Shown in pieces: positions 3,792 to 64,000 of a stretch of 64,000 nucleotides of DNA. The first letter of the stretch is position 1. Every line of letters begins with the position of its first letter. The notes under the pieces were generated by a model that was given only the letters and a program-made list of their open reading frames with translations, was not told the DNA's origin and made no database searches. Position numbers and translations under genes: made by a program. Origin of the DNA: Brachybacterium epidermidis (lineage in GTDB: Bacteria; Actinomycetota; Actinomycetes; Actinomycetales; Dermabacteraceae); NCBI RefSeq assembly GCF_015209585.1, contig NZ_JADEYR010000001.1:248001-312000 (forward strand), read 5' to 3'.

Positions 3792-3801
3792 ATCTTCATT
3801 C

Positions 3802-5226: not shown

Positions 5227-5269
5227 AGATGGTGATCTGCACCGCGTAGCTCCGGAGTGCTCCGCACAG

Positions 5270-5275
5270 TACCCT
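5270..5275 (+). promoter_or_regulatory. Candidate -10 element for the giant Ig/FN3 gene
   Basis: TACCCT matches the TANNNT pattern and lies about 100 nt upstream of the ATG at 5381, just downstream of the GGTGAAC cluster. There is no recognisable -35 hexamer at the expected spacing. This is a weak prediction. Confidence 0.3.
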
Positions 5276-5380
5276 GGGGGCGCGTGCGCACCGCCCGGTC
5301 AGGCTCGGGGGTCCGGTCGCCGACGACGGAGGCCTCTGGCGTGCGCACCGCTGGTCATTGGTGCTTCGTAGGGGGTTCGG

Positions 5381-11300: not shown

Positions 11301-11605
11301 ACTGGGGAGGGAAGGTGCCGCCGGGCGCTGACGGTTGCAGTTCGAACAACTGCTACTACTTCACGATCACGTTCGAGAACCTGGAACCCGGTGAGACGTA
11401 CCAGGTCGTCTACAAGAGTGTGGATACAGACGGTGTATTCAAGGAATGGGCCAGCTTCTCGTTGACCGCAGATTCGCGGGGGCGGGTGACCACGCCGCAA
11501 CGCTTCTACGGCCACTGGCAGAGCACCGGGAATCCCAATGTGGTGTACATCGGCAGTAAGTCGATCGAGCAGAGGGAAGTCGGACGTTACTACAGCCCGG
11601 ACTGA
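5381..11605 (+). CDS. Giant membrane-anchored surface protein with Ig-like and fibronectin type III repeats
   Basis: The 2074-residue protein starts with a basic stretch (five consecutive Arg/Lys) and one hydrophobic helix at about 16-36, suggesting a type II anchor with an extracellular body. Residues about 40-400 form a beta-rich region without a named motif, possibly a propeller. From about 405 to 1480 there are about ten Ig/cadherin-like modules marked by a repeated N-D-x-D-P-x-G signature (for example NDTDPDGD, NDVDPTGG, NDSDPDGS), a pattern linked to calcium binding. From about 1482 to 1960 five fibronectin type III modules follow, beginning KPEAPSAPRV. The last roughly 110 residues contain a Cys pair (CSSNNC). 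Its position before MoxR, DUF58 and transglutaminase genes matches the FN3 protein of the bifidobacterial PFNA cluster. The function is unknown; adhesion, sensing or envelope scaffolding are inferences. Confidence 0.85.
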   Translation: MSVTHGVKRRRRRSGAISGAVLAILALVVTGFAIKYPGLTSSEVDVTNGGVWVMNEQKRLMGRLNVDAQELDARLAMNGEDLDLLQSGYTVIETGPRGMTPINTAAVSRNALVELPPGSEVRLGGDRVAVAAPDGRMWILSPEEAAAFNPSAVDPTYEGSSKAPQIAVSSQGTVHLLEGDKLLVFPYTEDTRKAKPNDPIVVGGLSTGEGMVELTVVGEQPVILDRENRMLRLGTEVKEYQLTEYGVSDLATARLQQPSPASKDVVLATQDTLFLIPLNGGEAEAHAARGTGRPVAPAQARGCAYGAWNDSSAYVRACGDDVISETVPDANSDGDLVLRVNHDLVVLNDQKFGLSWMITDDMQLVDEWKIRQDIQTSDAEEREEETLTTTITNVAAERDEKNRPPVANDDEFGVRAGKSVVLPVTRNDTDPDGDILTVSVQGEQPSIGTVTPIRGGTQLQIEVDEDATGTASFTYVADDGRGESDTATVTLDVTGPADNRAPAPTAENITKVQVRSGQEVSFNILPYWEDPDGDAFYLANATVQPEDVVTFRPDGLITFTDAGLTTGEKKVQLTFRDERGMQGEGTLEIEAVSENDLAPITTADHVRIVAGRTATIKPLVNDLNPNGGQLELTNVSENDALEVDPALEAGTVNVSGAEPGTYYLDYTVAASSSSSASLGLIRVDVVEASSEQLIPVAVDDMGTVTAGTETLIDPLENDVDPTGGVLVVNSVSVPEGSGLKATVIAHGLVRVEAEPGAVAGAEPVPLTYQVGNAAGTAEGTIRVMVAQTDTQFANPIAVPDRATVRAGDMVLVDVVGNDISPTGSKLTLGQILDGSRAEDKGRVETLQNQIRFIANDDASGEAVIKYEVLDETGRDGSANLTVRIVPADASNAPPRPENLTARTVAGTSVRIPVPTTGIDPDGDSVMLMGITSPAPQLGEVVSATGEWIEYVPHEGSVGTERFRYQVMDRQGALGTAEVLVGIAEPNDTNQPPYAVDDVVEVRPDREVQVQVLDNDTDPEGTPLSVVAADTEALTDIHVHSGEDAAENLVTVTTPPENGTHQVLYSASDGQLKSSATATIKVDENAPYRSPIARDDFVEAQDVLDPQAEHVDVDVLANDSDPDGSVTDLTVTLDGAPEGVELRENGVVRIAPQDEQQRYRYQIEDVDGRTAAGYIWVPGRAKQAPVWVGGTVQVQAGAETTIDLSDPNNIRVRPGAEAATVTDPSLVTAAHTDGTQLVQDESTLLYRAAEGFSGNDTISVEVTDGEVGDPMAATAILAIPVEITAEDENLPPTLQGALLEVEQGGTQASVDLAASAADPEGDDLTFALGEFSEPEGVTIGLDGSSVTAQATPRAAKGSIVSVPVTVTDGTNDPVEATVQVTVTGSNRPRLAAVLDTAVIDAGTTQSIDVLANDSNPFPGGNRTVMTPVVTSGRGSLDVEGDQVAITPDEDFHGILTATYTVRDDTEDPARDATGEIRVTVRGKPEAPSAPRVAEVGDGIVDLNFTAGVDNGARITGYRVTSASGPPVSQECASTSCTITGLTNDVEYTFQVIAINEVGESEPSAPSATARPDVRPETPGAPSAQRGDSRLTVAWNAPVNRGSAIQSYDLQMQDTATGELVEKEMGGGTTQHVWEGLTNGTDYRFRVRARNLAPEPSEWSAWSVAEHPAGPPAKPSGAMTAERVNDPKGGGVKVTWPAMTRAEANGEPISSYIVRSSSGQSATVGGDARTHTFYDLDQDSAHTFTYTGVNSVGEGVAPSAPSNEVTPWAMPAPPTSVSASMPSEGTGDGPNKRATVTWSGASGNGTTIKDYVVRWEGGSTVVNAPAESAAITGLDNGKSYTFTVQARNRFKGGESALSKASNSVTPYTRPAGPAISASNGKCSDGTTCPVSFSITANGSDGGAGGKTLQYRVDGGSWKNASGTSYTHKANLKSGGSMTVEARVTNAKGLVSDVRSATQKARTYTPPVPTVAGGGPDWGGKVPPGADGCSSNNCYYFTITFENLEPGETYQVVYKSVDTDGVFKEWASFSLTADSRGRVTTPQRFYGHWQSTGNPNVVYIGSKSIEQREVGRYYSPD

Positions 11606-11632
11606 TCATCGCGCTGCGATACCTACTATTGC

Positions 11633-11657
11633 CACGCCGTTGAACGTATACGGCGTG
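11633..11657 (+). other. Stem-loop between the giant gene and moxR
   Basis: CACGCCGT at 11633-11640 pairs with ACGGCGTG at 11650-11657 around a 9-nt loop. There is no U tract, so it may be a partial terminator, an operator or an mRNA-stability element separating the giant gene from the ATPase operon. The whole gap is 84 nt. Confidence 0.35.
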
Positions 11658-11689
11658 CCCCGCTACCACTTCCAGGAGAGACCCCGCCC

Positions 11690-12664
11690 ATGAGCATGAC
11701 CCCCGAACAGGCACGCTGGTTCGCCGACACCTTCGACAAGCTGGTCCAGAGCGTCGGTCAGGCCGTGCTCGGCAAGAACAACGTGGTGCGCCTGGTGCTC
11801 ACCGCGATGATGTCGCCGGGCCACGTGCTTCTGGAGGACGCCCCCGGCACGGGGAAGACCTCGCTGGCACGTTCGATCGCGGCGACCGTGCAGGGCACCA
11901 GCACCCGCATCCAGTTCACCCCGGACCTGCTGCCCTCGGACGTCACCGGTGTGACGATCTACGACCAGAACACCAAGGCCTTCGAGTTCCACAAGGGACC
12001 CGTGTTCGCCAACGTGGTGCTGGCCGATGAGATCAACCGCGCCTCGCCGAAGACCCAGTCCGCCATGCTCGAGGTGATGGAGGAGGGTCGCGTCACCGTC
12101 GACGGCGTCACCCACGAGGTGGGCAATCCGTTCATGGTGATCGCCACCCAGAACCCCATCGAGCAGGCCGGCACGTACCGCCTGCCCGAGGCGCAGCTGG
12201 ACCGCTTCTTGATGAAGACCTCCCTGGGCTACCCCGATCACGCCTCCAGCGTGCAGATCCTGCAGGGCTCCGCCGTGCGCGACCGCAGCCGCCAGCTCGC
12301 CCCGCGCATCTCCCTGCAGGCCGTCAACGACATGACCCAGCTCGCCTCCACCGTGCACGTGGATCCGGCCGTGCTGGAGTACGTCTCGCGCCTGATGGAG
12401 GAGACCCGCCTCGCGCCCGAGGTGCGCGTCGGCGTCTCGATCCGCGGAGCGCTCGCCCTGATGCGCGCTGTGAAGGCGTGGGCAGCGGTCCACGGCCGCC
12501 ACTACGTCATCCCCGATGACGTCAAGGAGCTGGTGGACGTGGTGTGGCTGCACCGCTTCGTGCTGGACCCGGAGGCAGAGTTCTCCGGGACCACGGCGAA
12601 GTCCGTGATGCACAAGATCCTCAGCGAGGTGGCGCCGCCCCAGGCTCGACAGCGGACGGCATGA
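11690..12664 (+). CDS. MoxR-family AAA+ ATPase
   Basis: This 324-residue AAA+ ATPase of the MoxR/RavA clade probably acts as a chaperone that activates or assembles envelope or secreted partners encoded beside it. Walker A is APGTGKT (G53-T57) and Walker B is LADE (D113, E114). A conserved NRA segment follows Walker B, and the sensor region reads ATQNPIEQAGTY. Length is typical of the family. AGGAGAG lies about 11 nt before the ATG. Its stop codon overlaps the DUF58 start (ATGA), so the two are translationally coupled; MoxR-DUF58 pairs are a recurring module in bacteria. It is the first gene of an operon that runs to the secretion ATPase at 28,875. The substrate is not known. Confidence 0.93.
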   Translation: MSMTPEQARWFADTFDKLVQSVGQAVLGKNNVVRLVLTAMMSPGHVLLEDAPGTGKTSLARSIAATVQGTSTRIQFTPDLLPSDVTGVTIYDQNTKAFEFHKGPVFANVVLADEINRASPKTQSAMLEVMEEGRVTVDGVTHEVGNPFMVIATQNPIEQAGTYRLPEAQLDRFLMKTSLGYPDHASSVQILQGSAVRDRSRQLAPRISLQAVNDMTQLASTVHVDPAVLEYVSRLMEETRLAPEVRVGVSIRGALALMRAVKAWAAVHGRHYVIPDDVKELVDVVWLHRFVLDPEAEFSGTTAKSVMHKILSEVAPPQARQRTA

Positions 12665-14067
12665 ACGTCGATACCCCCCTTCCCAGCAACACGGCCGACG
12701 CCAAGGCCGCTCGCCGGGCCGCCAAGGCCGCACGCAAGCGCGAGCGCACCGCGGCCCGCGCCGCTGCTCGGCGTGCCAAGCGGCGCGGTGGCGTCTCGGA
12801 GTCACAGGCCCCTGCGGGCAGCTCCGACGCGACCTCCGGTCCGGGCACTGCCGCAGGCGAGGAGCCCCTCGGGCTGCGAGAGCGCCTCGGGGGGTTCTGG
12901 ATGCGCCGGATCCACCCGGTCCTGGACGTGATCTCACCGATCGGCTGGGCGGTGCTCGGGGTCGCGGTGGCGTGCTGGATCCTGGGGCTCCTGCTCCGCA
13001 TCACCGAGCTGAACGTGATCGCGCTGACGCTCACCGTGCCCCTGGTGCTGGCAGCACTGTTCGTGCTGGGACGCACGTCCTACAAAGTGAACCTGGACCT
13101 GCAGTCCCACCGCGTGGTCGTGGGTACGCGGGCCGTGGGCCGGGTCGAGGTCGCCAATCCCACGCAGCGCGTCATCCTGCCGTCCCGGATCGAGCTGGCC
13201 GTCGGTCAGGCCACGGCGCAGTTCATGGTGCCGCGCCTGGCGGCGGAGCAGTCGCACGAGGAGCTGTTCGCGGTGCCCACCAAGCGTCGGGCCGTGCTGG
13301 TGGTGGGTCCCGTGCGCTCGGTGCGGGACGACCCCCTGTCGCTGATGCGCCGACAAGTCACCTGGGCCCGATCGCAGGAGCTGTACGTGCACCCCCGCAC
13401 CGTGCGCCTGGACGGGGCCGCCAGCGGATTCCTGCGCGACCTGGAAGGCACGCCGTCCTCGGACCTGTCCAGCTCCGACATCGCCTTCCACGCGCTGCGG
13501 GACTACACACCGGGGGACGACCGCCGCCACGTGCACTGGCGCACCACCGCGCGCACCGGCAAGCTGATGGTCCGCCAGTTCGAGGAGACCCGCCGTTCCC
13601 ACGTGGTGGTGGCGCTGGACAACCTCGCCGACCACTACGCGAGCGAGGACGAGTTCGAGCTGGCCGTCTCCGCCGCCGCCTCGATCTCCGCCCAGACGAT
13701 GCGCGAGGAGAAGGAGCTGACCCCGTTCAGCTTCGACGCCCTCCAGCGCACCGCCACCTTCCGCGTACTGATGGACGACTACACCGTGCTCGAGCAGCTC
13801 CGCGACCGCCACTCCCTGCACGAGCTCGGGCAGCAGGCGGCCGACCTGGCTCCCAACGCGTCTGCGGTGATGATGGTGGTGGGCTCCCACACCACGGCGC
13901 GAGAGCTCAACTCCGCGGCCAACCAGCTGCCCATCGGGGTGCTCGCCGTGGCGATCCGCTGCGTGGACGACGCGGAGGTGCGGCGCAGCTCCATCGGAGG
14001 CCTGGACGTGGTGACCCTCGGCGACCTCGATGCGCTGCCCAAGGCACTGCGGGCGGTGGGCCGATGA
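12661..14067 (+). CDS. DUF58 domain-containing membrane protein
   Basis: The 468-residue protein starts at the ATG that overlaps the moxR stop codon; a longer upstream extension in the same frame would lie inside moxR and is rejected. The first 60 residues are rich in Ala, Arg and Lys and look disordered. Two adjacent hydrophobic segments at about 85-125 probably form a hairpin in the membrane. The C-terminal half carries the DUF58 signature around residues 285-310 (GDDRRHVHWR followed by a KLMVR segment). DUF58 proteins act with MoxR ATPases and resemble von Willebrand A-type folds, but their biochemical role is not established. It overlaps the next gene by ATGA, continuing the coupled operon. 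Confidence 0.9.
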   Translation: MNVDTPLPSNTADAKAARRAAKAARKRERTAARAAARRAKRRGGVSESQAPAGSSDATSGPGTAAGEEPLGLRERLGGFWMRRIHPVLDVISPIGWAVLGVAVACWILGLLLRITELNVIALTLTVPLVLAALFVLGRTSYKVNLDLQSHRVVVGTRAVGRVEVANPTQRVILPSRIELAVGQATAQFMVPRLAAEQSHEELFAVPTKRRAVLVVGPVRSVRDDPLSLMRRQVTWARSQELYVHPRTVRLDGAASGFLRDLEGTPSSDLSSSDIAFHALRDYTPGDDRRHVHWRTTARTGKLMVRQFEETRRSHVVVALDNLADHYASEDEFELAVSAAASISAQTMREEKELTPFSFDALQRTATFRVLMDDYTVLEQLRDRHSLHELGQQAADLAPNASAVMMVVGSHTTARELNSAANQLPIGVLAVAIRCVDDAEVRRSSIGGLDVVTLGDLDALPKALRAVGR

Positions 14068-16571
14068 ACGCGCGCGCCACGTACTTCGCCTCGGTCAGCA
14101 ATGGTCGGCGAGCCGTCGACGTGCTGGTGCTGGGCTCGCTGTTCGTGATCGCACTGCTGGGCTTCCAGACGGTCTACGGCGGCATCCAGTACCTGCTCAC
14201 CGGGTTGATGGCCCTGGTCCTGGCCACGCTGGTGGCGCTGATCGCGGCCCGCTTCCGGTGGGGCCCGCTGCGCACCGCACCGGTCATGCTGCTGGTGTAC
14301 TTCCTGTTCGGCAGCATGTTCGCGGCTCCCACCCATGCGCTGTGGGGCATCGTCCCCACCCTGGGCTCGCTGAAGGAGCTGCTGTTCGCACCGGTCACGA
14401 GCTGGAAGGCAGCCCTGACCATCGCACCACCGGTGGGCACCGCTCAAGGGGTGCTGGTCGTGGTGTGGATCAGCATGCTGCTGCTGGCGCTGTTCTCGAT
14501 GACCATCGTGATGCGCACCCGGCTCTACGCGGTCGCGTGGCTGTTCCCCCTGGCCCTGCTGCTGGTGAGCGTGGTCTTCGGCACCACCGAGGCCACCTGG
14601 CCGGTGGTGCGCGGCGTGCTGTTCGCCGTGATCTCGGTGGCCTGGCTGACCTGGCGGTTCGAGAGCGGACGGCTCGACAGTGCCCGGTCCACGATCATCT
14701 CCGACACGGTGCGGCCGGGATCCTGGAAGAACCCCGTGCTGCGTCGCCGGGTGATCGGTGGGGCCGTGATCATGGCGATCGCCGCCGGCGCTGCCGTGGG
14801 TGCCCAGTCCCTGCTGGACCCGCCCTCGGGGACCATCCGGCATGCCGTCCGTGACTACGTCACCCCGCCCTTCGATCCCCGGCAGTACGTGTCGCCCCTG
14901 ACCGAGTTCCGCGGATACCTCAAGAACCAGCGCGATGCCGAGCTGTTCACCATCACCGGTGTCACCGAGGGCGAGAAGGTGCGCCTTGCCACCATGGACC
15001 AGTACGACCTGCACGTGTACAACGTGGCGGGGGGCCGTGACAAGGACGCGCCCGAGGGTGCATTCCTGCGGACGGCAGGGGGAGTGGACCTGCACGAGGC
15101 CAGCGGCTCCCAGCGCACCTCCACCGTGACCATCGGGGCGTACAGCGGCGTGTGGATGCCCACGCTGGGGGAGCGCACCAATCGCATCGATCTGGGGGAT
15201 CTGCCGCCCGAGCGCAGCGGTGCCCTCGCCGAGAACCTGTACCTCAACGAGAAGTCCCAGACCGCGGTGAACTCCAGCGGGCTCCGAGCGGGCGACAGCT
15301 ACGAGGTCGGCTACGAGCCCTACTCCGACCTCACTGTCGAGCAGCGACGCACCGCCAAGTTCGCTGACATCGACCTGCCGCCCAACGCCCGTCTCGACCC
15401 CGAGTTCGCGCAGCTGGCCGACGAATGGGTGGGAGGCGCCGACACGGACTACGACCGCTCCCAGACCCTCCCCCGCCACATCAAGCAGGACGCCTTCTAC
15501 TCCAACGGCATCGATGAGGACGACACGGCGTCCCTGTCCGGACACGGGTACAGCCGCCTATGGTCGATGCTGCAGGACGTCGGATTCGACAAGGAGAAGT
15601 CCGACGCCGCCCCGACCGGGCGCATCGGCGATGAGGAGCAGTTCGCTGTGCTCACCGCGGTGATGGCCCGGGAGATCGGCATCCCCGCCCGGGTGGTGAT
15701 GGGCTTCGAGGTGCCCGAGGGCGCCGAGGGCACGGTGGCGATCACCGGGGATGACGTCACCGCGTGGGTCGAGGTCGCGTTCGAGGGCCTCGGATGGGTG
15801 CGGTTCGATCCGGCACCCGATGACGATCAGGACCCGACCCAGCCGAAGCCCAAGGAGGTGGAGGAGCCCATGCCGCAGGTGGCCCAGCCTCCGCCCCCAC
15901 CGGCGGAACCGCCCTCCCCACCGCCCGGCGCGACGAGCGAGGACAAGCCCCAGGACGAGGACCAGCCCGAGGAGACCCGCAGCTGGGTGGTGTACGCCGC
16001 CTTCGCGGCCGTCCCGGTGCTGCTGCTGTTCCTGGCGCTCACGGGCATCGTCGTGGCGAAGGTGGTGCGGCGCGGACGGCGCCGGGCCCGGGGTGCGCTT
16101 CCGGAGCGTATCGATGGCGGTTGGCAGGAGATCCTGGACCTGTTGACCGACATGGGGCGCCGACCCGACCCGTTCCGTACCCGCTCCGAGACCGCGGCGA
16201 TGCTGGAGGGTGAGGTACCGGGAGCTGGAGCGGCCCTGCTCGCCAGTCGCGCTGATCGAGCGGTGTTCGGGCCCGACGATCTTCCTCCGGTGGTGGTGGA
16301 GGAGTACTGGGAGCAGGTGGCCGCCGCGCGGCGTACCATGACCGCCTCCGTACCGTGGCACAAGCGGATGCGCGCACTGTTCTCCTTGCGTTCGTTCCGC
16401 CGTCGCAGTGCGGAGCGGCGAGCTCACAGGCGCCGTGAGCGCGCGGCGGCTCGGGAGCGATCGCAGGCCGAGCGCCGTGCACACGCGATGCGTCGTCGTC
16501 GTGCACCCGTCTCGGGGGTGAGCGGCACGGGCTCGTCCCGAGGCAGCAGCAAGAGGAAGGGCAGATCGTGA
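14064..16571 (+). CDS. Membrane transglutaminase-like protein lacking the catalytic Cys and His
   Basis: The 835-residue protein has about seven N-terminal transmembrane helices (residues 15-260), an extracellular region with a transglutaminase-core fold, a Pro/Glu-rich linker, one more transmembrane helix at about 640-665 and a very basic cytoplasmic tail. This is the DUF3488/TgpA-like layout found beside MoxR and DUF58. The core is easy to align through GIPARVV and AWVEV...GWVRFDP, but the usual catalytic Cys is Glu524 (GDEEQFA) and the catalytic His is Thr566 (VTAWVEV); Asp582 remains. It should therefore be inactive as a thiol transferase or protease and may act as a binding module. The start overlaps the DUF58 stop codon (ATGA). 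Whether the loss is shared by close relatives cannot be told from this sequence alone. Confidence 0.88.
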   Translation: MNARATYFASVSNGRRAVDVLVLGSLFVIALLGFQTVYGGIQYLLTGLMALVLATLVALIAARFRWGPLRTAPVMLLVYFLFGSMFAAPTHALWGIVPTLGSLKELLFAPVTSWKAALTIAPPVGTAQGVLVVVWISMLLLALFSMTIVMRTRLYAVAWLFPLALLLVSVVFGTTEATWPVVRGVLFAVISVAWLTWRFESGRLDSARSTIISDTVRPGSWKNPVLRRRVIGGAVIMAIAAGAAVGAQSLLDPPSGTIRHAVRDYVTPPFDPRQYVSPLTEFRGYLKNQRDAELFTITGVTEGEKVRLATMDQYDLHVYNVAGGRDKDAPEGAFLRTAGGVDLHEASGSQRTSTVTIGAYSGVWMPTLGERTNRIDLGDLPPERSGALAENLYLNEKSQTAVNSSGLRAGDSYEVGYEPYSDLTVEQRRTAKFADIDLPPNARLDPEFAQLADEWVGGADTDYDRSQTLPRHIKQDAFYSNGIDEDDTASLSGHGYSRLWSMLQDVGFDKEKSDAAPTGRIGDEEQFAVLTAVMAREIGIPARVVMGFEVPEGAEGTVAITGDDVTAWVEVAFEGLGWVRFDPAPDDDQDPTQPKPKEVEEPMPQVAQPPPPPAEPPSPPPGATSEDKPQDEDQPEETRSWVVYAAFAAVPVLLLFLALTGIVVAKVVRRGRRRARGALPERIDGGWQEILDLLTDMGRRPDPFRTRSETAAMLEGEVPGAGAALLASRADRAVFGPDDLPPVVVEEYWEQVAAARRTMTASVPWHKRMRALFSLRSFRRRSAERRAHRRRERAAARERSQAERRAHAMRRRRAPVSGVSGTGSSRGSSKRKGRS

Positions 16572-18382
16572 TGAGCCAGACGCGGTACTGCAGCACGTGC
16601 GGGACTCTGCTGTCGCAGGGGGCTGCCATCTGCGGGGAATGCGGGGCCCGCTATCAGGAGTCCCCGTACGAGCGCCGCGCCACCGATGCGCCGGGGGCAT
16701 GGGCCCAGGCCCCCCGTTCGCGCTCTCGCGATCTCGGCGAGGAACCGGAGACCGCCTCTGAGGACGACGGCATCCAGCTCATCTCGCGGGAATCGCTCCA
16801 GCCGAAGGCCCCGGGCGCGACAACCCTGCGGCCGCCGGAACAGTACGATCAGCTGATGGTCACTCAGCAGCCTTCGAACGCCCCTGCGACGGGGTCAGCC
16901 TCCGGAGCGCCTGCCCCGGGCGGTTCCCACGCCGCGGGGGGCGCCTCCGGTGCGCCCGACGGCGCTGTGCCGGCGATGGAATCGCCGCTGGACGGCTGTG
17001 TCCCCGCCAGCCCGCTCAAGCGCTTCCTCGCCGCGCTGCTGGACGGCGTGATCGCGACGCTGGTGATGATCCCGTTGACGATCGGCCTGATCCTGGTGCT
17101 CACCCAGGAGACCGTAAGCCTGCTCGCAACGATCCTGGTGGGAGTGGGCGCTGCCCTGCCTGCGGCGTACACCGTGCTGATGATCTGGCTGCACGGAGCC
17201 AAGGGCTTCACCCTCGGCAAGCTGATCATGGGGCTGCGCACCACCCGCCTCTCGCAGGCCGGCCCCATCGGCCTGCTGCGCTCCCTGGGCCGCTGGTTCC
17301 TGTACGGCATCGCCTCGCTGATCATGGCGCTGTCGATCTTCCTGGATCCGAAGAAGTTGCTGCGCGGCTTCCACGACCGCGCTGTCGATTCGGTCGTGGT
17401 GGACATCAAGACCGGTCGCAACCCGATGAAGCCGCGCCCCGACGATTTCGAGCGACAGGACGCCGAGCACTACCTCGGTGCGCCGTCGGTGGCGGTCACC
17501 ACGCACGAGAACCTCCTGGCGACCCCCGGCTCGGCCTGGGCCGGGCAGGGTGATGCCAGTGCCGCTTCCGCGTCGTCCCAGGACCCCCGACAGACCAGCG
17601 GGTGGGGTTCCGGCATCGGAGAGGCCAGCCCTTACGCCCCTCCGCCGCAGGATGCGCAGCAGACTGCAGGGGACTCCTGGGCACCTCCGGAGGTCCCCGC
17701 TCTGGCGTCCCCGGCACCGCAGCCACAGCAGCCTCAGGAGCAGCAGTGGGGTGTGCCGTCGCAGCCGCAGCAGGCACCCGCCCAGCAGTGGGCCGCCCCG
17801 TCACAGCCGCAGCAGGCGCCCGAGCAGCCGTGGGGCGGCACGGCCTCACAGGAGCCCGCCGTCCAGCAGCGGCAGGCACCGGCGGCGGCACCCCCCGGTG
17901 CGCCGCAGGGCCCTCCGTCGCAGCACGTCCCGGCCGAGCACACCACCGACGCCTGGGACGACGGCGACGTCGACGAGGAGACTCGCGCGGTGATCGGGGC
18001 GGATCAGGACCTCGGCGACCTCGAGCAGACCCGCGTCTCGGTCGCGGCTCCAAGGCTCCCCGCCGTCACGCTGCGCGCGGATGACGGCACCGAGAGGGTG
18101 GTGACGGGTCCGGTCGTGATCGGCCGCAATCCTGCTGCTGGGCAGGGCGAGGTGCAGTTCGTGCTCAAGGACGAGACACGCTCGATGTCCAAGACCCACC
18201 TGCGGCTGGACGGAACCGGAAGCGACATCACCGTCACCGACCTGGGTTCGACGAACGGCTCGGCCATCGTCAGGGCCGACGGATCCCGTGAGAGCCTGGT
18301 GCCGAACACCCCGACCGTCCTGCCCGAGGGGGCCGCCCTGGCCCTCGGCGATCGCACCCTGACCGTGGAGAGGGACACGTGA
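16571..18382 (+). CDS. Zinc-ribbon / RDD membrane / FHA domain protein
   Basis: The 603-residue protein joins three modules. Residues 1-30 form a short zinc ribbon (C7, C10, C21, C24). Residues about 145-275 form an RDD domain with three hydrophobic helices. After a long Gln/Pro/Ala-rich linker with QPQQAP repeats, residues about 500-603 form an FHA domain with the expected GR, SKTH and STNG motifs for binding phosphothreonine. It probably docks phosphorylated partners at the membrane, and the kinase encoded 3.6 kb downstream is the likely source of phosphate. The ATG shares a base with the previous stop codon (TGATG); a GTG three bases earlier at 16568 is equally well spaced from the GAGGAAG ribosome-binding site. 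Confidence 0.88.
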   Translation: MSQTRYCSTCGTLLSQGAAICGECGARYQESPYERRATDAPGAWAQAPRSRSRDLGEEPETASEDDGIQLISRESLQPKAPGATTLRPPEQYDQLMVTQQPSNAPATGSASGAPAPGGSHAAGGASGAPDGAVPAMESPLDGCVPASPLKRFLAALLDGVIATLVMIPLTIGLILVLTQETVSLLATILVGVGAALPAAYTVLMIWLHGAKGFTLGKLIMGLRTTRLSQAGPIGLLRSLGRWFLYGIASLIMALSIFLDPKKLLRGFHDRAVDSVVVDIKTGRNPMKPRPDDFERQDAEHYLGAPSVAVTTHENLLATPGSAWAGQGDASAASASSQDPRQTSGWGSGIGEASPYAPPPQDAQQTAGDSWAPPEVPALASPAPQPQQPQEQQWGVPSQPQQAPAQQWAAPSQPQQAPEQPWGGTASQEPAVQQRQAPAAAPPGAPQGPPSQHVPAEHTTDAWDDGDVDEETRAVIGADQDLGDLEQTRVSVAAPRLPAVTLRADDGTERVVTGPVVIGRNPAAGQGEVQFVLKDETRSMSKTHLRLDGTGSDITVTDLGSTNGSAIVRADGSRESLVPNTPTVLPEGAALALGDRTLTVERDT

Positions 18383-54716: not shown

Positions 54717-56432
54717 TCAGGACTGCCCGAGCACCTGGCGCAGGTCCTCGGTGACGCGCGTGAGCCGCTCGGCCGCGCGACGGCGGGCCTGCCCCAGCGC
54801 CGCCTCGTCGGCCTCCGCAGCGACGGGCTCGACGACCTCCAGGTAGCACTTGAGCTTCGGCTCGGTGCCGGAGGGGCGCACCACCACCCGGGTGTCGTCC
54901 TCGCACAGCAGCAGGATCCCGTCGGTGGGTGGCAGGCCAGTGGTCCCCACCGAGCCCTGGGAGAGGTCCTGGTTCTCGACCACGGGCGAACCGGCCAGCT
55001 CACCGGGCGGTGAGGTGCGGATGGTGCGCATCATGGTGCCGATCAGGGCGAGGTCCTCGACCCGCACCGACAGCTGCGAGGTGGCGTACAGCCCGTCGCG
55101 GCGCGCCAGCGCATCGAGCCGGCCCACCAGTGTGGTGCCCTCGGCCTTCGCCTCCGCGGCCATCTCCGCGACCATGAGGGCGGCAGAGAGCCCGTCCTTG
55201 TCCCGCACCACGTCCGGCAGCACGCAGTAGCCGATGGCCTCCTCGTAGCCGAAGGCGATGCCCGGGGCACGGGAGATCCACTTGAAGCCGGTCAGGGTGG
55301 TGGCGGCCTCGGTACCAGCATCCTGCGCCACCCGGTCCAGCCAGCGACTGGAGACCAGGGAGCGGGCCAAGGTGCCCCGGTAGCCGTGGCGGCGCACCAG
55401 GTGCTCGCCCAGCAGCACGCCCAGCTCGTCGCCGGTGAGCATCCGCCAGCGGCCCAGGTGCGGGTCCAGAACGGCGGCCGCGCAGCGGTCCGCATCGGGA
55501 TCGTTGGCGATCACCACGTCGGCCTCGACGGTGGCGGCCAGCTCGAGCGCCAGGTCGATCGCCCCGGGCTCCTCCGGGTTCGGGAAGGACACGGTGGGGA
55601 AGTCCGGGTCGGGGTCGGCCTGCTTGGCCACCGAGTGCACGTCGGTGAAGCCGGCGCGGTGCAGGGCCGCCAGGGCGATGCGGGTGCCCACGCCGTGCAT
55701 GGCGGTGTGCACGATCCGCACCTCCCGCGGGGAGCCGGGATCCGGCAGCGCGCAGATGGCCTCCAGGTAGTGCTCCTCGACGCGGTCGCCCAGGATCTCC
55801 CAGCCGGACTCGGCCACCTCGATCCCCAGCACGGGCCCCACGGCCGCGATACGGGCCGCGATGTGCGCGTCCGACGGCGGGACGATCTGCACGCCGCGGC
55901 CCTCGGGAGCGGCTGCCCGCCCGCCCAGGTACCCCTGTTGGCCGTTGTCGGCAGGCGGGTTGTGGGAGGCGGTGACCACCACGCCCGCATCGGCCTCCAG
56001 GTGCCGCACGGCGAAGGCCGCCAGGGGGGTGGGCTGGTGGGTGTCGAACAGCTGCACCCGACAGCCCGCCGCGGTCATGATCGCGGCGGAGCGCTCGGCG
56101 AAGGCGCGGGAGTTGTGGCGGGCGTCGTGGCCGATCACCACCTGAGGCCGATCGAGGCCCAGGTCACCGGTGAGGTGATCGGCGAGGCCCCGGGCGGCAC
56201 GGGAGACCACCGCGAGGTTCATCCGGTTCGGTCCCGGCCCCATCCGTCCCCGCAGTCCTGCGGTGCCGAACTGGAGGGTGCCGGTGAAGGCATCGGCGAG
56301 CTCCGCCTGCGCGGCCTCGTCCCCGGAGGCGGCCTGATCCACCAGGGAGGTCAGCGCCGCACGGGTCATGGGATCGGGGTCGTCCTCGCCCCAGGCCTTT
56401 GCGCGGGTCAGGAGGTCCTGGTCCGGGTTCAT
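54717..56432 (-). CDS. Phospho-sugar mutase (PMM/PGM family), candidate phosphopentomutase
   Basis: The 571-residue alpha-D-phosphohexomutase has FGTAGLRG, the phosphoserine loop TASHNPP, the metal-binding DPDADR and GFKWISR. This is the long PgcA/PmmB form. It overlaps punA by ATGA and is convergent with deoC, so its likeliest substrates here are ribose- and deoxyribose-1-phosphate, replacing a classical DeoB, which is not in the window. The punA-pmmB pair is also present in mycobacteria. Phosphoglucomutase or phosphomannomutase activity remains possible. Confidence 0.88.
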   Translation of the reverse strand: MNPDQDLLTRAKAWGEDDPDPMTRAALTSLVDQAASGDEAAQAELADAFTGTLQFGTAGLRGRMGPGPNRMNLAVVSRAARGLADHLTGDLGLDRPQVVIGHDARHNSRAFAERSAAIMTAAGCRVQLFDTHQPTPLAAFAVRHLEADAGVVVTASHNPPADNGQQGYLGGRAAAPEGRGVQIVPPSDAHIAARIAAVGPVLGIEVAESGWEILGDRVEEHYLEAICALPDPGSPREVRIVHTAMHGVGTRIALAALHRAGFTDVHSVAKQADPDPDFPTVSFPNPEEPGAIDLALELAATVEADVVIANDPDADRCAAAVLDPHLGRWRMLTGDELGVLLGEHLVRRHGYRGTLARSLVSSRWLDRVAQDAGTEAATTLTGFKWISRAPGIAFGYEEAIGYCVLPDVVRDKDGLSAALMVAEMAAEAKAEGTTLVGRLDALARRDGLYATSQLSVRVEDLALIGTMMRTIRTSPPGELAGSPVVENQDLSQGSVGTTGLPPTDGILLLCEDDTRVVVRPSGTEPKLKCYLEVVEPVAAEADEAALGQARRRAAERLTRVTEDLRQVLGQS

Positions 56433-57301
56433 CGGGTGGGCTCCTCATCGGTGGTATCCGTGGTGCCGGTGGTGCCGGGGCCGGTGATCCGGCGCACCGT
56501 CTCGGCCAGCAGGCGGGAGATGCGCGGGCCCGCCTCCCGGCCGGCCTCGAGCACCTCCTCGTGGCTGAGGGCTTCGGCGCTGATACCGGCGGCCAGGTTG
56601 GTCACCAGGGAGATGCCCAGGACGTCCATCCCGGCCTCGCGTGCGGCGATCGCCTCCAGCGCCGTGGACATCCCCACCAGGGTGGCTCCCATGGTGCGGG
56701 CCATCCGCACCTCGGCCGGGGTCTCGTACGTCGGGCCGCGGAACTGCATGTACACGCCTTCCTCCAGCGAGGGATCGACCTCCCGCGCCACGTCGCGCAG
56801 CGCCGGGGTGTACACGTCGGTGAGGTCCACGAAGTTCGCACCGGCCAGCGGAGTGGTGCCGGTGAAGTTGATCTGGTCCGCGATCAGCACCGGGGTGCCG
56901 GGCGACCAGGACGGGTCGATCCCGCCGCAGCCGTTGGTCAGCACCATGGTGCGGCAGCCCGCGGCGGCCGCAGTGCGCACACCGTGCACCACGGGCCCCA
57001 CACCGGCGCCCTCGTACAGGTGCGTGCGCGCCCCCAGCACCAGGGCATGCGCGCCGCTGCCCTCGATGCGGATGGAGCGCAGGGTGCCCACGTGGCCCGA
57101 CACGGCGGGCGGCCTGAACCCGGGGATCGTGGTGGCGTCGGCCTGCCACACGGTCTCTCCCAGCAGGTCCGCGGCACCGGACCAACCTGAGCCGAGCACC
57201 AGTGCGAGGTCATGGGCCGCGATGCCGCTGCTGCGCGCGATCGCGGCGGCGGCCTCCTTCGCCAGCGAGTACGGATCCGGGGCAGTGGTGGTCTCGTCCA
57301 T
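56429..57301 (-). CDS. punA: Purine-nucleoside phosphorylase
   Basis: The 290-residue trimeric-type PNP splits (deoxy)inosine and guanosine. Motifs are LVLGSGWSG, SGHVG, HLYEG, TNGCGGI, QFRGPTYETPAE and GMSTALEA. The start at 57301 is chosen because TAGGTT precedes it by seven bases with no ribosome-binding site, indicating a leaderless mRNA. It is first in an operon with the phosphohexomutase and divergent from the lpdA homologue. Confidence 0.95.
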   Translation of the reverse strand: MDETTTAPDPYSLAKEAAAAIARSSGIAAHDLALVLGSGWSGAADLLGETVWQADATTIPGFRPPAVSGHVGTLRSIRIEGSGAHALVLGARTHLYEGAGVGPVVHGVRTAAAAGCRTMVLTNGCGGIDPSWSPGTPVLIADQINFTGTTPLAGANFVDLTDVYTPALRDVAREVDPSLEEGVYMQFRGPTYETPAEVRMARTMGATLVGMSTALEAIAAREAGMDVLGISLVTNLAAGISAEALSHEEVLEAGREAGPRISRLLAETVRRITGPGTTGTTDTTDEEPTR

Positions 57302-57314: not shown

Positions 57315-57388
57315 GCGCAGACCCCTGGGCCGAGCGCAGTCGGCGTGACCGTGCACGGGCGAGTCACATTCTGAGACACAATGGGGGC

Positions 57389-58861
57389 GTGAGAGATCCC
57401 AGCACCGCGCTTCCCTCCGATCCCGATCGCGTCACCAAGGCCGGTGAGCACCCCCGGGTGGTGATCATCGGGGGCGGCCCGGGCGGCTAGGAGGCGGCCC
57501 TCCCCGCCGCGCGGCACGGGGTGGAGACCGTGCTCATCGAGGAGCGAGGCATCGGCGGCGCCGCCGTGCTCACCGACGTGGTCCCCTCCAAGACGCTGAT
57601 CGCCACCGCCGATGTGCTGGACCTGGTGGCGGATTCGCAGGACCTGGGCATCCGGGACGCAGACTCCGCCGCGACCCCCACCTCGCGCACGCTGAGCGTG
57701 GACCTCGGGGCCGTCAACGAGCGCGTGCGCCGCCTGGCCGACAAGCAGTCCGCCGACATCCGGGAGAGCCTCGTGGAGGCAGGGGTGACGCTGATCGAGG
57801 GCCGTGGCCGCCTGGCAGGCCCGCACCGGGTGGAGGTGCTGGACGGCGAGGGCGAGGTGATCGACGAGGGCGAGGGGGACGTGCTGCTGGTGGCGGTCGG
57901 TGCCACGCCCCGTGAGCTCGCCGACTCCCCGGCCGATGGGCACCGGATCCTGAACTGGACCCAGCTGTACACCCTCACCGAGCTGCCCGAGCACCTGATC
58001 GTGGTGGGCTCCGGCGTCACCGGTGCCGAGTTCGCCAGCGCCTACCGGGCCCTCGGCAGCGAGGTCACCCTGGTCTCCTCCCGCGACCAGGTGCTGCCCG
58101 GCACCGATGCGGATGCCGCCGACGTGCTCGAGGCGGCTTTCGCCCGCCGCGGTGTCACCCTGCGCTCCCGCTCCCGAGCGGCTTCCGCCCGCGTCGTCGG
58201 CGAGGGGGCTGAGCAGCACGTGGTGGTGGAGCTGACCTCCGGAGAGGAGGTGCACGGCAGCCACGTGCTGATGGCGCTGGGAGGGATCCCCAACACCGCG
58301 GGCCTGGGCCTGGAGGAGGCCGGGGTGCGGATGCGCGACAGCGGCCATGTCGTCACCGACCGCGTCTCCCGCACCTCGGTGCGCGGCATCTACGCGGCCG
58401 GGGACTGCACCGGGGTGTACCCGTTGGCGTCGGTGGCGGCCATGCAGGGACGGATCGCCATGTACCACGCCCTGGGCGATGCGGTCTCCCCGCTGATCTC
58501 CGCGCATGTCTCCTCGGCGGTGTTCACCAGCCCGGAGATCGCCGTGGTCGGGGTGAGCGAGAAGGAGATCCTGGACGGGGAGATCAGCGGCGAGGTGCGG
58601 ATGCTGCCCCTGGCCACGAACCCGAGGGCCAAGATGCAGGGCATCTCCGAGGGCTTCGTGAAGCTGATGGTGCGCCCCGGCTCCCACACCGTGATCGGGG
58701 CCGTGGTGGTGGCGCCGCGGGCCAGCGAACTGATCCTGCCCTACGCCATGGCGGTGACCCATCGGCTCACGGCCGAGCAGGTGGCCGACACCTTCACCGT
58801 GTACCCGTCACTGACAGGGTCGATGGCCGAGGCCGCCCGGCAGCTGCGCGGGGCCGACTGA
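57389..58861 (+). pseudogene. lpdA: LpdA-type NAD(P)H-quinone reductase gene with internal amber codon
   Basis: The frame encodes a two-dinucleotide-binding flavoprotein of 490 codons. It is open except for TAG at 57488-57490 (codon 34), in GGGPGG-stop-EAAL where homologues have Tyr (GGGPxGYEAAL). Otherwise it is intact: IGGAAVLTDVVPSKTLIA, the second nucleotide site VVGSGVTGAEFASAY, the FAD segment YAAGDCTGVYPLASVA, and the dimerisation domain to the end. Both redox Cys of lipoamide dehydrogenases are absent, which points to a quinone reductase like mycobacterial LpdA and not a disulfide reductase. A single base change explains the stop. As read the gene would make a 33-residue peptide; a restart at GTG 57521 would lack the FAD loop. 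Error or real null allele are both possible. Confidence 0.85.
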
Positions 58862-58980: not shown

Positions 58981-60762
58981 TCAGTCCTCGATCGTGCACA
59001 GAACGGCGCCGGCCGAGACGGTCGCGCCGATCTCCGCGGTCAGGCCCGTCACCACCCCGGAGCGGTGCGCGGTGATGGGCTGCTCCATCTTCATCGCCTC
59101 GAGCACCAGCAGCAGGTCGCCGTCGGCCACGCTGCGGCCCTCCTCGGCGACGATCTTCACGATGGTGCCCTGCATGGGAGCGGTGACCGTGCCGCCACCA
59201 GCCGCCGTAGCCCCGCCCACGCCGCGGTGGGCGCGCTTGCGGCGCTGGCGCACGGCCGCCTGCGGTGCACGCAGGGAGGCCGGCAGGCTGATCTCCACCC
59301 GGCGACCGTCGACCTCGACCACCACGGCCTCGCGGTCCTCCGGCTCCTCGGGCTGGGCCGGCAGCGGAGCCGGCGCGATCTCGCCGTCGAAGTCCGTCTC
59401 GATCCAGCGGGTGTGCACGCTGAAGGGCTCCGAGGGGTCCTGCGGCGCGAAGGCCGGGTGCTCGACCACCTGTCGGTGGAAGGGCAGCACGGTGGGCACG
59501 CCGTCGATGCGGAACTCCGCCAGGGCCCGCCGTGAGCGCTCGAGCGCCTCCGTGCGGGTGGCCCCGGTGACGATCAGCTTGGCCAGCATCGAGTCGAACG
59601 CCCCGGAGACCTCGTCCCCGGCGCGCACGCCGGTGTCGAGCCGCACCCCCGGGCCGGCCGGGGGATCGAAACGCTGGACCCGTCCCGGGGCCGGCATGAA
59701 CCCGCGCCCGGCGTCCTCGCCGTTGATGCGGAACTCGAAGGAGTGGCCGCGCACCTCCGGATCGGTCTCGCTGACCTGCTCGCCCGCTGCGATCCGCAGC
59801 TGCTCGCGCACCAGGTCGATCCCGGTGACCTCCTCGGAGACCGGGTGCTCGACCTGAAGGCGGGTGTTGACCTCCAGGAAGGAGATGGTGCCGTCGACCC
59901 CCACCAGGAACTCGCAGGTGCCGGCACCCACGTACCCGGCCTCCCGGAGGATCGCCTTGGAGGCGCTCACCAGCTGTGCGTTCTGCTGGGCGGAGAGGAA
60001 CGGTGCCGGGGCCTCCTCCACCAGCTTCTGGTGGCGGCGCTGCAGGGAGCAGTCACGGGTGGAGACCACCTGCACGTTGCCGTGCACGTCCGCCAGGCAC
60101 TGGGTCTCCACGTGGCGGGGCGAGTCCAGGTAGCGCTCCACGAAGCACTCGCCGCGGCCGAACGCCGCGGTGGCCTCCCGCACTGCCGAGTCGAACAGCT
60201 CGCGCACCTCGGACTCCTCGCGGGCCACCTTCAGGCCGCGGCCGCCGCCGCCGAAGGCCGCCTTGATCGCGATCGGCAGGCCGTGCTCGCGGGCGAAGGC
60301 CACCACCTCGTCGCTCGAGCCGACGGGATCCTTGGTGCCGGCCACCAACGGCGCACCGGCCTTCTGGGCGATGTGTCGGGCCGAGACCTTGTCGCCCAGC
60401 TTCTCGATCGCCTCGGGCGGGGGACCGATCCAGGTCAGCCCCGCATCGATCACGGCCTGCGCGAAGTCCGCCCGCTCGGAGAGGAAGCCGTAGCCGGGGT
60501 GGACGGCATCGGCACCCGAGCGCCGCGCGATGTCCAGGATCTTGTCGATCACCAGGTAGGAGCTGGCGGCGGTGGTGCCGCCCAGGGCGTAGGCCTCGTC
60601 CGCGATCACGGTGTGCAGGGCATCGCGGTCAGGATCCGCGTACACGGCCACCGAGCGCAGACCCGCGTCACGGCAGGCCCGGGCCACGCGCACCGCGATC
60701 TCGCCGCGGTTGGCGATCAGCACGGTGGACAGCGGGCGGGTCTTGGAGTGGCGGGAGGCCAT
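58981..60762 (-). CDS. Acyl-CoA carboxylase alpha chain (biotin carboxylase plus biotin carrier)
   Basis: The 593-residue protein joins a biotin carboxylase (residues 1-450: [42 protein letters not shown]) to a C-terminal biotinyl domain whose EAMKMEQ lysine carries biotin. This is the AccA3-type subunit that works with a separate carboxyltransferase to make malonyl-CoA or related products. A linker rich in Arg and Gly separates the domains. AAGGAAA precedes the start. maf lies just upstream on the same strand, as beside accA3 in mycobacteria. Confidence 0.95.
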
Positions 60763-60798
60763 GGGCAGGGGTTTCCTTCCGAGGGCGGACAGGGGTCG

Positions 60799-60804
60799 AG
60801 TCTA
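60799..60804 (-). promoter_or_regulatory. Candidate -10 element for the carboxylase gene
   Basis: TAGACT on the minus strand lies in the 60-nt gap after maf, giving a leader of about 30 nt with a ribosome-binding site. The same hexamer occurs before the DUF885 and polyprenyl synthase genes. The carboxylase may thus be transcribed both alone and with maf. Confidence 0.45.
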
Positions 60805-60822
60805 GTACCGGGGCCGGTGGGC

Positions 60823-61581
60823 TCAGCGTTCGTCGGCCGCGCCCTGGGCGGAGAGATCCTCCCACAGCTCGTGGATCCCGATGCCGATCTCGCCGAGCAT
60901 CTGGCGCAGCAGCGGCAGGGACAGGCCCACCACGGCGTGCGGATCCCCGTTCACACCGGTGATGAACGGTCCTCCCATGCCATCGATGGTGAAGCCGCCG
61001 GCCACGCCGAGGGGCTCCCCGGTGGCGACGTAGGCGTCGATCTCCTCGTCGGAGAGGTCGGCGAAGGTGACCTCGCAGCTGGCGGAGGCGCCGAAGGTGG
61101 CCCCGGTGCCGCCGTCCTCGGGATCGCGGTCGTCGATCAGCCAGTGCCCCGAGTGCAGCACGGCGGTGCGGCCGCGCTGCGTGCGCCAGCGCTCGCCGGC
61201 GACCTCGGCGGTGCGCGGCTTGCCGAGCACCGTGCCGTCCAGCTCGAGCATCGAGTCACCGCCCAGAACCACGTAGCCGCCGTCGCTGAGCTCGGTCGCT
61301 GCCTGCGCCTTCTCCCGCGCCAGCAGCAGCACCTCCTCGGCGGCTGCCAGGGGGGCGCCGGCCTCCTCGGCGGCCGTGCGTGCACGGTCCAGGATCGCGT
61401 CCTCGTCGAGATCCACCGGCAGTGTGTCGTGCTCGATGCGGGCAGCCGTCAGGGTGGCGCGCCTGCCCGCGGAGGCCGAGGCCAGCAGCAGCAGGGGACC
61501 GCCGCCGGTGTCCGGCAGCGGCTCCGTGGCCGGCTCGGTGATGTGCTGGGTGTGCTCGACGGCCGGTGTGCTGTCGCTCAT
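60823..61581 (-). CDS. Maf-family nucleotide pyrophosphatase
   Basis: The 252-residue protein belongs to the Maf family, which hydrolyses nucleoside triphosphates that are modified or in excess. It keeps LLLASASAGRRATL, an acidic VDLDED segment, REKA and GGDSMLELDG with GKP. The N-terminus has about 28 extra polar residues before the core; the start at 61581 is still preferred because it overlaps the DUF885 stop codon (ATGA). A later start cannot be excluded. Confidence 0.88.
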   Translation of the reverse strand: MSDSTPAVEHTQHITEPATEPLPDTGGGPLLLLASASAGRRATLTAARIEHDTLPVDLDEDAILDRARTAAEEAGAPLAAAEEVLLLAREKAQAATELSDGGYVVLGGDSMLELDGTVLGKPRTAEVAGERWRTQRGRTAVLHSGHWLIDDRDPEDGGTGATFGASASCEVTFADLSDEEIDAYVATGEPLGVAGGFTIDGMGGPFITGVNGDPHAVVGLSLPLLRQMLGEIGIGIHELWEDLSAQGAADER

Positions 61582-63332
61582 GCCAGCGCTCCGTCCAGGA
61601 CGGACAGCGGCACGCTGCCCAGTTCGAGGGCCCGGCGGTGGAAGTCGCGCAGCACCGCCGCGGCCTGCTCGGAACCAGGGCCCTCAGCCCCGGAGGCGAC
61701 CTGGGCGGCGGGGGCCAGGGCGCGCTCGCGCAGGCGCTCCCATTCGCGCTGGCCCACCTTGTAGGAGGGAGCCTGACCGGGCCAGCCCAGGTAGCGGTGC
61801 AGCTCGAAGCGCTGCTCGGCCTCGGCCATGCCCCAGTGCTCGCTCATGAAGTCCCATGCCTTCTCATAGCTCCAGGCGCCCCCGGCCGAGCCCGCCAGGC
61901 CCTCCGGCATCGGCAGCTCGCAGTGCAGGCCGATGTCCAGCACCACGCGCCCGGCCCTCATCCTCTGCGCATCCAGCATCCCCAGGCGGTCGCCGTCGTC
62001 GGAGAGGTAGCCCAGCTGGTCCATCAGCCGCTCGGCGTACAGGGCCCAGCCCTCGCCGTGCCCGGAGACCCAGCACAGCAGGGCGCGCCAGCGGTTCAGG
62101 GACGCGGCCTGCATGGTCTGAGTGCCCACCTGCAGATGATGACCGGGAACCCCCTCGTGGTACACGGTGGTGGTCTCGGCCCAGGTGTGGAACTCGGTGG
62201 TACCGGCTGGGACGTCCCACCACATGCGGCCGGGACGGGTGAGGTCCTCACTGGGACCGGTGTAGTAGATGCCGCCGGAGCCGGTCTGCGCGATCCGGCA
62301 CTCCAGGCGCCGCAGGGGAGCGGGCACGTCGAAGTGGGTGCCGGCGAGATCCTCGATCGCCCTGTCGCTGAGCTGCTGCATCCACGCCCGCAGGGCCTCG
62401 GTGCCGTGCAGGACGCGCTCGGGATCGTTGCGCAGGGCCTCCTTGGCCGCGCTGACCGAGCGGCCGCCGCCGGTTCCGTAGCGCTGGTTGATCCGCTCGG
62501 CCACCTGCTCCTGCTCGGCGACGATCGAGCGCAGCTCCTCGATGCCCCAGGCGTAGGTGTCGTCGATGTCGATCTCGGTGCCCAGGAAGGTGCGGGAATG
62601 CAGGGGGTAGGCCTCCCTGCCCACCGCGTCGCGGTCCGGGGCGGCCGACGCCAGTTCCTCCAGCACCTCCGCGATCTGCACGTATCCCTCAGCGGCGGTG
62701 CGGGCCGCCGCCGCGGCGCGCTCGCGCTGGGTCTCATCACCGACCGCCTGCTGGGCGAAGCGGGTGAAGAAGCCGTCCCGCGCCGCGTAGGAGCGGGCCT
62801 GCTCGGCGCCCAGCAGGAGTTGCCGGCGTGCCGAGACGGTGCCCGCCGAGGCGGCCTCGCGCAAGGACTGCGCCCAGGTGTGCAGCGAATGGGGCATCTG
62901 CTCCATCCGGGAGCTGAGCACCTCCCAGTCCTCTGCGGTCTCGGCGGGCATCAGGTCCAGCACGTCCCGCACCTGCAGCGTGGAGGCGAGGTTGTTGACC
63001 GCAGCGATGTCCAGGTGCTGCTCGGCCCGCTCGATCTGCAGGCCCAGTCGCTCGGTCATCGCGGCGCGGGTCACGGCATCGGTGGCGTCCGCATCGGCGA
63101 CCTGTGCGATGCGCTCCAGCATGGTGCGGGCCGCGTCGGTGCGTGCGGCCTCGGCGGCGGGAGAGTAGTCGGTGACCTCGTGGTCGTGCCCGGGCACACC
63201 GATGCTGGTGGCGGTGAAGGGGTCGGCCTGCACCACCTGCTCGACGTAGTCATCGGCCAGGGCGTCCAGCGGGGACGGGGAACGGGTGGGGCGGGAGGGC
63301 GAGGGCTCCGATGCTGACAGGTGTTCGGCCAT
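61578..63332 (-). CDS. DUF885 metallopeptidase-like protein
   Basis: The 584-residue helical protein belongs to the DUF885 family related to M32-like metallopeptidases. The metal site is readable as YHEGVPGHHLQ, with a later Glu in GHGEGWALYAE. No signal peptide is visible, so it is probably cytoplasmic, perhaps degrading peptides. The ATG follows the leaderless element TAGACT by seven bases. It is coupled to maf by an ATGA overlap. Confidence 0.88.
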   Translation of the reverse strand: MAEHLSASEPSPSRPTRSPSPLDALADDYVEQVVQADPFTATSIGVPGHDHEVTDYSPAAEAARTDAARTMLERIAQVADADATDAVTRAAMTERLGLQIERAEQHLDIAAVNNLASTLQVRDVLDLMPAETAEDWEVLSSRMEQMPHSLHTWAQSLREAASAGTVSARRQLLLGAEQARSYAARDGFFTRFAQQAVGDETQRERAAAAARTAAEGYVQIAEVLEELASAAPDRDAVGREAYPLHSRTFLGTEIDIDDTYAWGIEELRSIVAEQEQVAERINQRYGTGGGRSVSAAKEALRNDPERVLHGTEALRAWMQQLSDRAIEDLAGTHFDVPAPLRRLECRIAQTGSGGIYYTGPSEDLTRPGRMWWDVPAGTTEFHTWAETTTVYHEGVPGHHLQVGTQTMQAASLNRWRALLCWVSGHGEGWALYAERLMDQLGYLSDDGDRLGMLDAQRMRAGRVVLDIGLHCELPMPEGLAGSAGGAWSYEKAWDFMSEHWGMAEAEQRFELHRYLGWPGQAPSYKVGQREWERLRERALAPAAQVASGAEGPGSEQAAAVLRDFHRRALELGSVPLSVLDGALA

Positions 63333-63339
63333 GGTCCGC

Positions 63340-63345
63340 AGTCTA
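63340..63345 (-). promoter_or_regulatory. Candidate -10 element, leaderless DUF885-maf mRNA
   Basis: TAGACT on the minus strand is followed by seven bases (GCGGACC) and the ATG at 63332. There is no ribosome-binding site. It lies in the 30-nt gap after thiD. Confidence 0.5.
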
Positions 63346-63362
63346 GGCGGGGCAGGAGCGCG

Positions 63363-64000
63363 TCAGCGCCCGGCCGCGGCCTCCCACAGTTCCCAGAAAT
63401 GCGAGATCGGCCCGTTCCCGGACCCCACCTGGAGGTGCTGACCGTCCTCGATCGCCCGCGCCAGCCACGGCTTGGCGGCGCTCAGAGCGGGCTCCCAGGC
63501 CCCGTGACGGACCCTCAGCGTCGCCATGGCGGCGGACAGCGAGCATCCGGTGCCGTGGGTGCTGGAGGTGCGGATGCGCGGTGAACTGACCACGTGCCGC
63601 ACGCCGTCGGCATCGACCAGCGCATCGCGCACCTCGCGTTCGCTGAGATGGCCGCCCTTGGCGAGCACCAGCACGTCGGCGCTGGCGGCCAGGCGCTGGG
63701 CCTGGGAGACCAGGTGGTCCCAGGTGGCAGCCGGCTCGTCCATGAGCAGTACGGCGAGTTCATCCACGTTGGGGGTGACCAGATGCACCTGCGGGAGCAG
63801 GTCGCGCATGGCGCGTTCGGCGTCCTCCTCCAGCAGGCGGTCGCCGCTGGTGGCCACCATCACCGGGTCCATCACCACCACCGGCGGGCTGGTGCGCCGA
63901 AGCCAGTCCGCGACCACGCCGATGGTGTCGGCGTCGAAGAGCATCCCGGTCTTGACCGCATCGACGGTGACGTCGTCGCTGACGGCCTCAAGCTGTTCTT
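63363..64000 (-). CDS. thiD: Hydroxymethylpyrimidine (phosphate) kinase, 5' end outside the window
   Basis: About 212 residues of the C-terminal part are present. ThiD phosphorylates hydroxymethylpyrimidine twice for thiamine synthesis. The reading frame is open to the window edge and begins there as EQLEAVSDDVTVDAVKTGM, the conserved ThiD segment near residue 70. Further motifs are DPVMVATSGDRLL, TPNVDELAVL, LAKGGH and the catalytic GTGCSLSAA. The normal length is about 265-280, so roughly 60-70 N-terminal residues are missing. Confidence 0.92.
   Translation of the reverse strand, partial: EQLEAVSDDVTVDAVKTGMLFDADTIGVVADWLRRTSPPVVVMDPVMVATSGDRLLEEDAERAMRDLLPQVHLVTPNVDELAVLLMDEPAATWDHLVSQAQRLAASADVLVLAKGGHLSEREVRDALVDADGVRHVVSSPRIRTSSTHGTGCSLSAAMATLRVRHGAWEPALSAAKPWLARAIEDGQHLQVGSGNGPISHFWELWEAAAGR

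Follow-up and report, generated by a model that had tools for sequence, protein, structure and literature searches.

The lpdA gene of Brachybacterium epidermidis carries a TAG codon inside a coding frame that is otherwise intact. Does this organism read TAG as an amino acid, has it recently lost the gene, or is a single base of the assembly wrong? We addressed this question by analysing the window, that is, the whole stretch of 64,000 nucleotides that holds the gene, together with the rest of the genome and with related genomes.

The interrupted frame and its predicted product

The frame starts with GTG, ends with TGA at 58859-58861 and comprises 490 codons plus the TGA (Table 1). No second stop lies within it, which bears out the description in the earlier note of a TAG that interrupts an intact 490-codon frame, and the TAG directly follows the motif GGGPGG. 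When the product is read with X at the stop, it reaches 678.6 bits against NF005883 (NAD(P)H-quinone dehydrogenase, cut-off 479), while the Pfam models PF00070 (75.3 bits) and PF02852 (85.6 bits), both above their cut-offs, mark the NAD(P)-binding and dimerisation domains of the pyridine nucleotide-disulphide oxidoreductases. The closest solved chain is 1xdi (Rv3303c-lpdA; residues 23-488, 428.8 bits). Judged from these matches, the gene is a predicted LpdA-type NAD(P)H-quinone dehydrogenase. The complete FAD-binding loop that belongs to NF005883 membership is absent from the protein as translated.

Table 1 Features of the lpdA locus, in window coordinates
Feature	Position	Strand	Basis or remark
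Interrupted frame of lpdA-type NAD(P)H-quinone dehydrogenase (predicted)	57389..58861	+	NF005883, 1xdi
In-frame TAG, codon 34, at the FAD-binding GGGPGG loop/helix start	57488..57490	+	Tyr in relatives
Codon 39, Pro, inside the first helix (predicted)	57503..57505	+	Thr/Ala/Val in every relative read
Short hairpin, base 57490 pairs with base 57503	57482..57508	+	z -0.97
Downstream in-frame GTG frame, 446 aa	57521..58861	+	641.5 bits to NF005883
CACAAT, likely -10 box, six bases upstream of the initial GTG	57377..57382	+	Alignment by eye; promoter role inferred
Purine-nucleoside phosphorylase, divergent neighbour	56429..57301	-	TIGR01698, 312.1 bits, cut-off 302.6
Biotin carboxylase-type subunit, convergent neighbour	58981..60762	-	Biotin carboxylase models, E down to 3e-179; no single model above its cut-off

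A second intact copy of lpdA that might supply the function was considered and rejected: the gene is single-copy in the 3.07 Mb, 30-contig assembly, where two further matches span 43 and 26 bases, and the paralogs of its product in the same genome share at most 32% identity with it. A conserved TAG listed inside one of these paralogs (C25:119569-121008) and in several relatives proved to be ordinary, as it falls shortly ahead of where the paralog probably starts.

In an alignment judged by eye, most of the 29 genus sequences retain the CACAAT element. Its position suggests that the lpdA message may be leaderless, with CACAAT as its -10 box.

The earlier note had further stated that the gene lacks both redox cysteines, in line with the quinone-reductase group. 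The first part stands for the gene and for its genus, in which all 29 sequences read have VVPSK at the redox positions and no cysteine at either. The second part does not, since 76 of 80 wider loci (of at least 523 confirmed) keep the second cysteine; in the sequences compared, the absence of both is a trait of the genus and not of the whole quinone-reductase group.

The stop is private to the window gene

Codon 34 is a Tyr codon in all 28 genus relatives readable by script; 30 loci were put in, among them the window's own locus and one from G003 (L075) that the motif search missed. It is also Tyr in 80/80 loci kept from the at least 523 confirmed in a GTDB scan, with TAC in 69 and TAT in 11, the two codons that the earlier note had named for the homologues. 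Full-length orthologs are present in 33 of the 37 other genus genomes, none of them with an internal stop. The ortholog of G026 is cut by a contig end after 435 bases, and the search of the 38 genus genomes gave no match above about 35% identity in G017, G029 and G032. Across 47 genomes of the family, 36 matched at E<=1e-100, and the stop was seen in the window's own gene only; the best named relative among the matches listed in the GTDB scan is the ortholog of Brachybacterium alimentarium, with 76% identity.

Additionally, we compared 45 open frames with the nearest relative, G016, using a codon-position filter against shadow frames. By eye, the lpdA TAG is the only stop inside a real coding frame; the others fall close to the end of a frame, upstream of a probable start codon or within a shadow frame. 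Together, the Tyr in relatives, the orthologs free of stops and the solitary position of this stop in a real coding frame show that the TAG is no chance feature of a non-gene.

TAG is seldom used but acts as a stop in this genome

A tRNA family search of the genome returned 48 places, and one further place above the cut-off for tRNA-Sec (C25:73509-73599, L034/L037, 81.5 bits). The anticodon of this tRNA-Sec is TCA, and its gene suggests that the genome makes selenoproteins. The earlier note had proposed to look for an amber suppressor tRNA elsewhere in the genome, and none turned up: according to ARAGORN, no CTA anticodon occurs among the 49 tRNAs (48 plus tRNA-Sec) of this draft assembly, which is 99.88% complete and might still hide a tRNA gene in one of its gaps. 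The frame of release factor RF1 (C11:509096-510175) runs without stops and scores 421.2 bits, just below the cut-off of 423.25. It carries a GGQ motif, and a PIT at the place of the PxT of RF1. The only match to PylS reaches 26.2 bits against a cut-off of 178.

Among 116 genes, taken with a GC-profile gene picker from ten 20 kb stretches plus the window, 112 end in TGA, three in TAG and one in TAA. One of the three TAG-ending genes resembles a shadow frame, while the other two resemble real genes and presumably encode a DUF488-like and an SDR-like protein. In the window itself, 26/26 of the genes so picked end in TGA.

UAG-reading tRNA-Sec is known in some actinobacteria, and the rarity of TAG as a terminal stop (3/116) together with the presence of a tRNA-Sec would fit a TAG recoded as an amino acid, be it selenocysteine, pyrrolysine or a reassigned amber codon. 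However, the tRNA-Sec reads UGA, no CTA anticodon was found, RF1 is present, PylS is unsupported, two plausible genes terminate in TAG, and only one gene among the 45 aligned frames is interrupted, which leaves recoding a negligible chance. Amber suppression, selenocysteine and pyrrolysine decoding were each rejected on the tRNA set, RF1 and the PylS score, in agreement with the earlier note, which had seen no selenocysteine or pyrrolysine context. Since none of the tRNAs found reads it, RF1 is present and two real-looking genes end in it, TAG does function as a stop, if rarely, and its decoding as sense is disfavoured.

A separate observation concerns a tRNA called Leu with anticodon TAA (C5:19082-19155; L043:100-174), which is about 75 bases long and is without the usual long variable arm. 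A similar sequence, with 87-91% identity, is present in 5/5 relatives searched.

Apart from the stop, the frame is undecayed

Between lpdA and its counterpart in G016 (92% identity), dS is 0.376 and dN 0.043, a ratio of 0.115; the same comparison yields 0.055-0.191 for seven further genes from this region. The 468 codons compared hold 108 synonymous and 35 amino-acid differences. Polarised with 27 further relatives, six of the 35 fall on the window branch (the stop included) and six on the G016 branch, with 23 assigned to neither. At 215 columns invariant in the other sequences, the window gene differs at one, which is the stop, and the other 28 sequences at 0 to 6. By a rough estimate, 0 to 0.13 of the window's own branch was neutral, or at most 0.20 with 2 SE.

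No relaxed constraint after the stop was thus seen, as expected if the change is very recent and equally if the base is wrong. The undecayed frame means that the loss of function would be very recent or that the base is an error; if lpdA is dead, its death would be very recent. The word "recent" in the earlier note therefore fits the ratio of 0.115 and the balanced 6/6 changes.

The identity of the window to G016 is itself patchy, with 96.7% at 1-3879, 78.5% at 4129-17713, 92.3% at 58981-63999 and mostly 82-86% between. This patchiness suggests recombined or replaced blocks along the window.

A second private change lies close to the stop

Codon 39 is also private. Where the window gene has Pro, 26 of 28 genus relatives have Thr, one has Ala and one has Val; the wider loci (80/80, of at least 523 confirmed) all have one of these three residues. 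The change lies 13 bases from that of the TAG. The modelled B. alimentarium ortholog (L083) has a helix from residue 31 to 42 (mean pLDDT of the model 68.7, about 80 to 86 locally), so the Pro would fall in the middle of a helix of the FAD-binding unit. Residue 322, which is Asp or Glu in all relatives, carries a third private change.

The two neighbouring private bases face each other in a short hairpin of ordinary stability. A pair at such spacing occurs in 28/1438 windows of the gene, about 2%, and was noticed after the fact. The TAG and the codon-39 Pro might thus have arisen, together or sequentially, by fold-back (quasi-palindrome) copying, as the change extends the hairpin stem, which would be a hairpin-templated mutation caught in the act of killing a gene. 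A one-step copy of one hairpin arm fails to explain both bases and two steps are needed; we consider this origin very doubtful. Gene conversion from another genomic copy was rejected as a source: in a search with an 18-base pattern, allowing up to three mismatches, only the lpdA site was exact, the next best site had two mismatches, and a reversed control pattern had more hits.

Null allele or base error

The pair of private changes bears on the possibility that the draft assembly has a wrong consensus base in the TAG, and perhaps another in codon 39, and that the gene is intact in the living strain. The stop is private to one assembly in an undecayed frame, and the second private change stands at a conserved site 13 bases off, which fits a local error cluster. 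One study links strand-biased Illumina miscalls to GGC, GGT and inverted repeats (PMC3622629). The present sites share these contexts: on the + strand, 57490 is immediately preceded by runs of GGC, the GG-T context of codon 39 is found on the - strand, and the two private bases face each other in the hairpin. The undecayed frame, the closeness of the two changes and their contexts also weigh against a null allele, as does the fact that the species is visible as one assembly, with no second strain to confirm the base.

However, such contexts are common: with both strands counted, 21% of the window's bases follow a GGC at a distance of 2-4 bases, and the GG-T context is shared by 16% of A/T bases. 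No frameshift was seen by eye among the 45 aligned frames. Over 2490 conserved columns of the neighbouring genes (phosphorylase excluded), the changes private to the window are not in excess, with 37 against 34 for G016, and there is consequently no sign of poor assembly. We regard a base error as a serious possibility that falls short of being likely.

The strain carrying a recent nonsense (null) allele of lpdA is the reading that we prefer, with a probability of about 0.6. It is supported by a TAG that is private, by the lack of a reader among the tRNAs found, by the presence of RF1 and by a level of constraint like that of the neighbouring genes. Both sides of the earlier note's choice between a recent null mutation and an error are left standing by the evidence. 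The codon-39 change, the repeated loss of the gene in the family and the downstream 446-aa frame had escaped that note.

A restart downstream would not restore the FAD loop

Under a recent null allele, ribosomes that start at GTG 57389, on a probably leaderless message, would halt after 33 residues, and no FAD-binding reductase would be made. Alternatively, the stop may be real but leaky, or translation may restart at GTG 57521, so that a useful protein is still produced. The mutated sequence contains AGGAGG, a Shine-Dalgarno-like element, at 57489-57494, an in-frame GTG follows 31 bases after the stop, the frame is undecayed, and the 446-aa remainder still has its NAD and dimer domains and matches NF005883 from profile position 28 with a score above the family cut-off. 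However, 26 bases separate the AGGAGG from the GTG, more than a Shine-Dalgarno element normally allows, no suppressor tRNA was found, and the undecayed frame is equally expected from a recent change. The remainder also lacks the FAD-holding parts, namely the first strand and the GxGxxG loop, and a restarted 446-residue protein would be expected to be inactive. Leaky translation or restart to a useful product is therefore most improbable.

Because the remainder passes the family cut-off, such a lesion can hide from automatic annotation. This is a matter of annotation hygiene: pipelines may list a functional NAD(P)H-quinone dehydrogenase although the FAD loop is missing from it.

lpdA appears dispensable in the family

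Returning to the null allele, we looked at the three genus genomes in which no lpdA ortholog was found. In G017 (99% complete), about 300 bases separate the end of the biotin carboxylase gene from the start of the phosphorylase gene, and that interval holds no lpdA match. The sequence of G029 breaks off 83 bases past its carboxylase gene, and no carboxylase match was seen in G032, so both are uninformative. Among the family genomes outside the genus, 2/9 have an ortholog, and in 7/9 there is none at E<=1e-100. From its absence between intact neighbours in G017 and from these 7/9 genomes, lpdA is judged to be dispensable in the family.

The loss would be bearable for the cell because the product is one of several flavin disulfide-reductase-like enzymes there and because the gene has probably disappeared repeatedly within the family. 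Should the base be real, the window gene would be a further case of this repeated loss of lpdA.

Comparison with known systems

The feature is an ordinary one: a redox gene that the family can do without has either recently become a null allele or been hit by a consensus error. With systems that decode UAG by tRNA-Sec or pyrrolysine, it shares an in-frame TAG and a tRNA-Sec gene only; unlike in those systems, the tRNA-Sec here reads UGA, and neither a CTA tRNA nor PylS was found in the genome.

According to two reports, LpdA of Mycobacterium tuberculosis is a quinone reductase linked to oxidative stress, the over-expression of which gives more pellicle mass (PMC5694780, PMC9213004). The window gene resembles this protein (Rv3303c, 1xdi) over its full length, with the same domain order and a score that passes the NF005883 cut-off. 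It differs by the in-frame TAG at the FAD loop and by having no cysteine at either redox position, whereas 1xdi keeps the second.

The window gene also resembles recent bacterial pseudogenes with a single nonsense codon, which have one stop in an intact frame, private to its carrier, in a gene that is dispensable in relatives. Provided that the base is right, nothing specific sets the window gene apart from these, but here a second private change stands close by.
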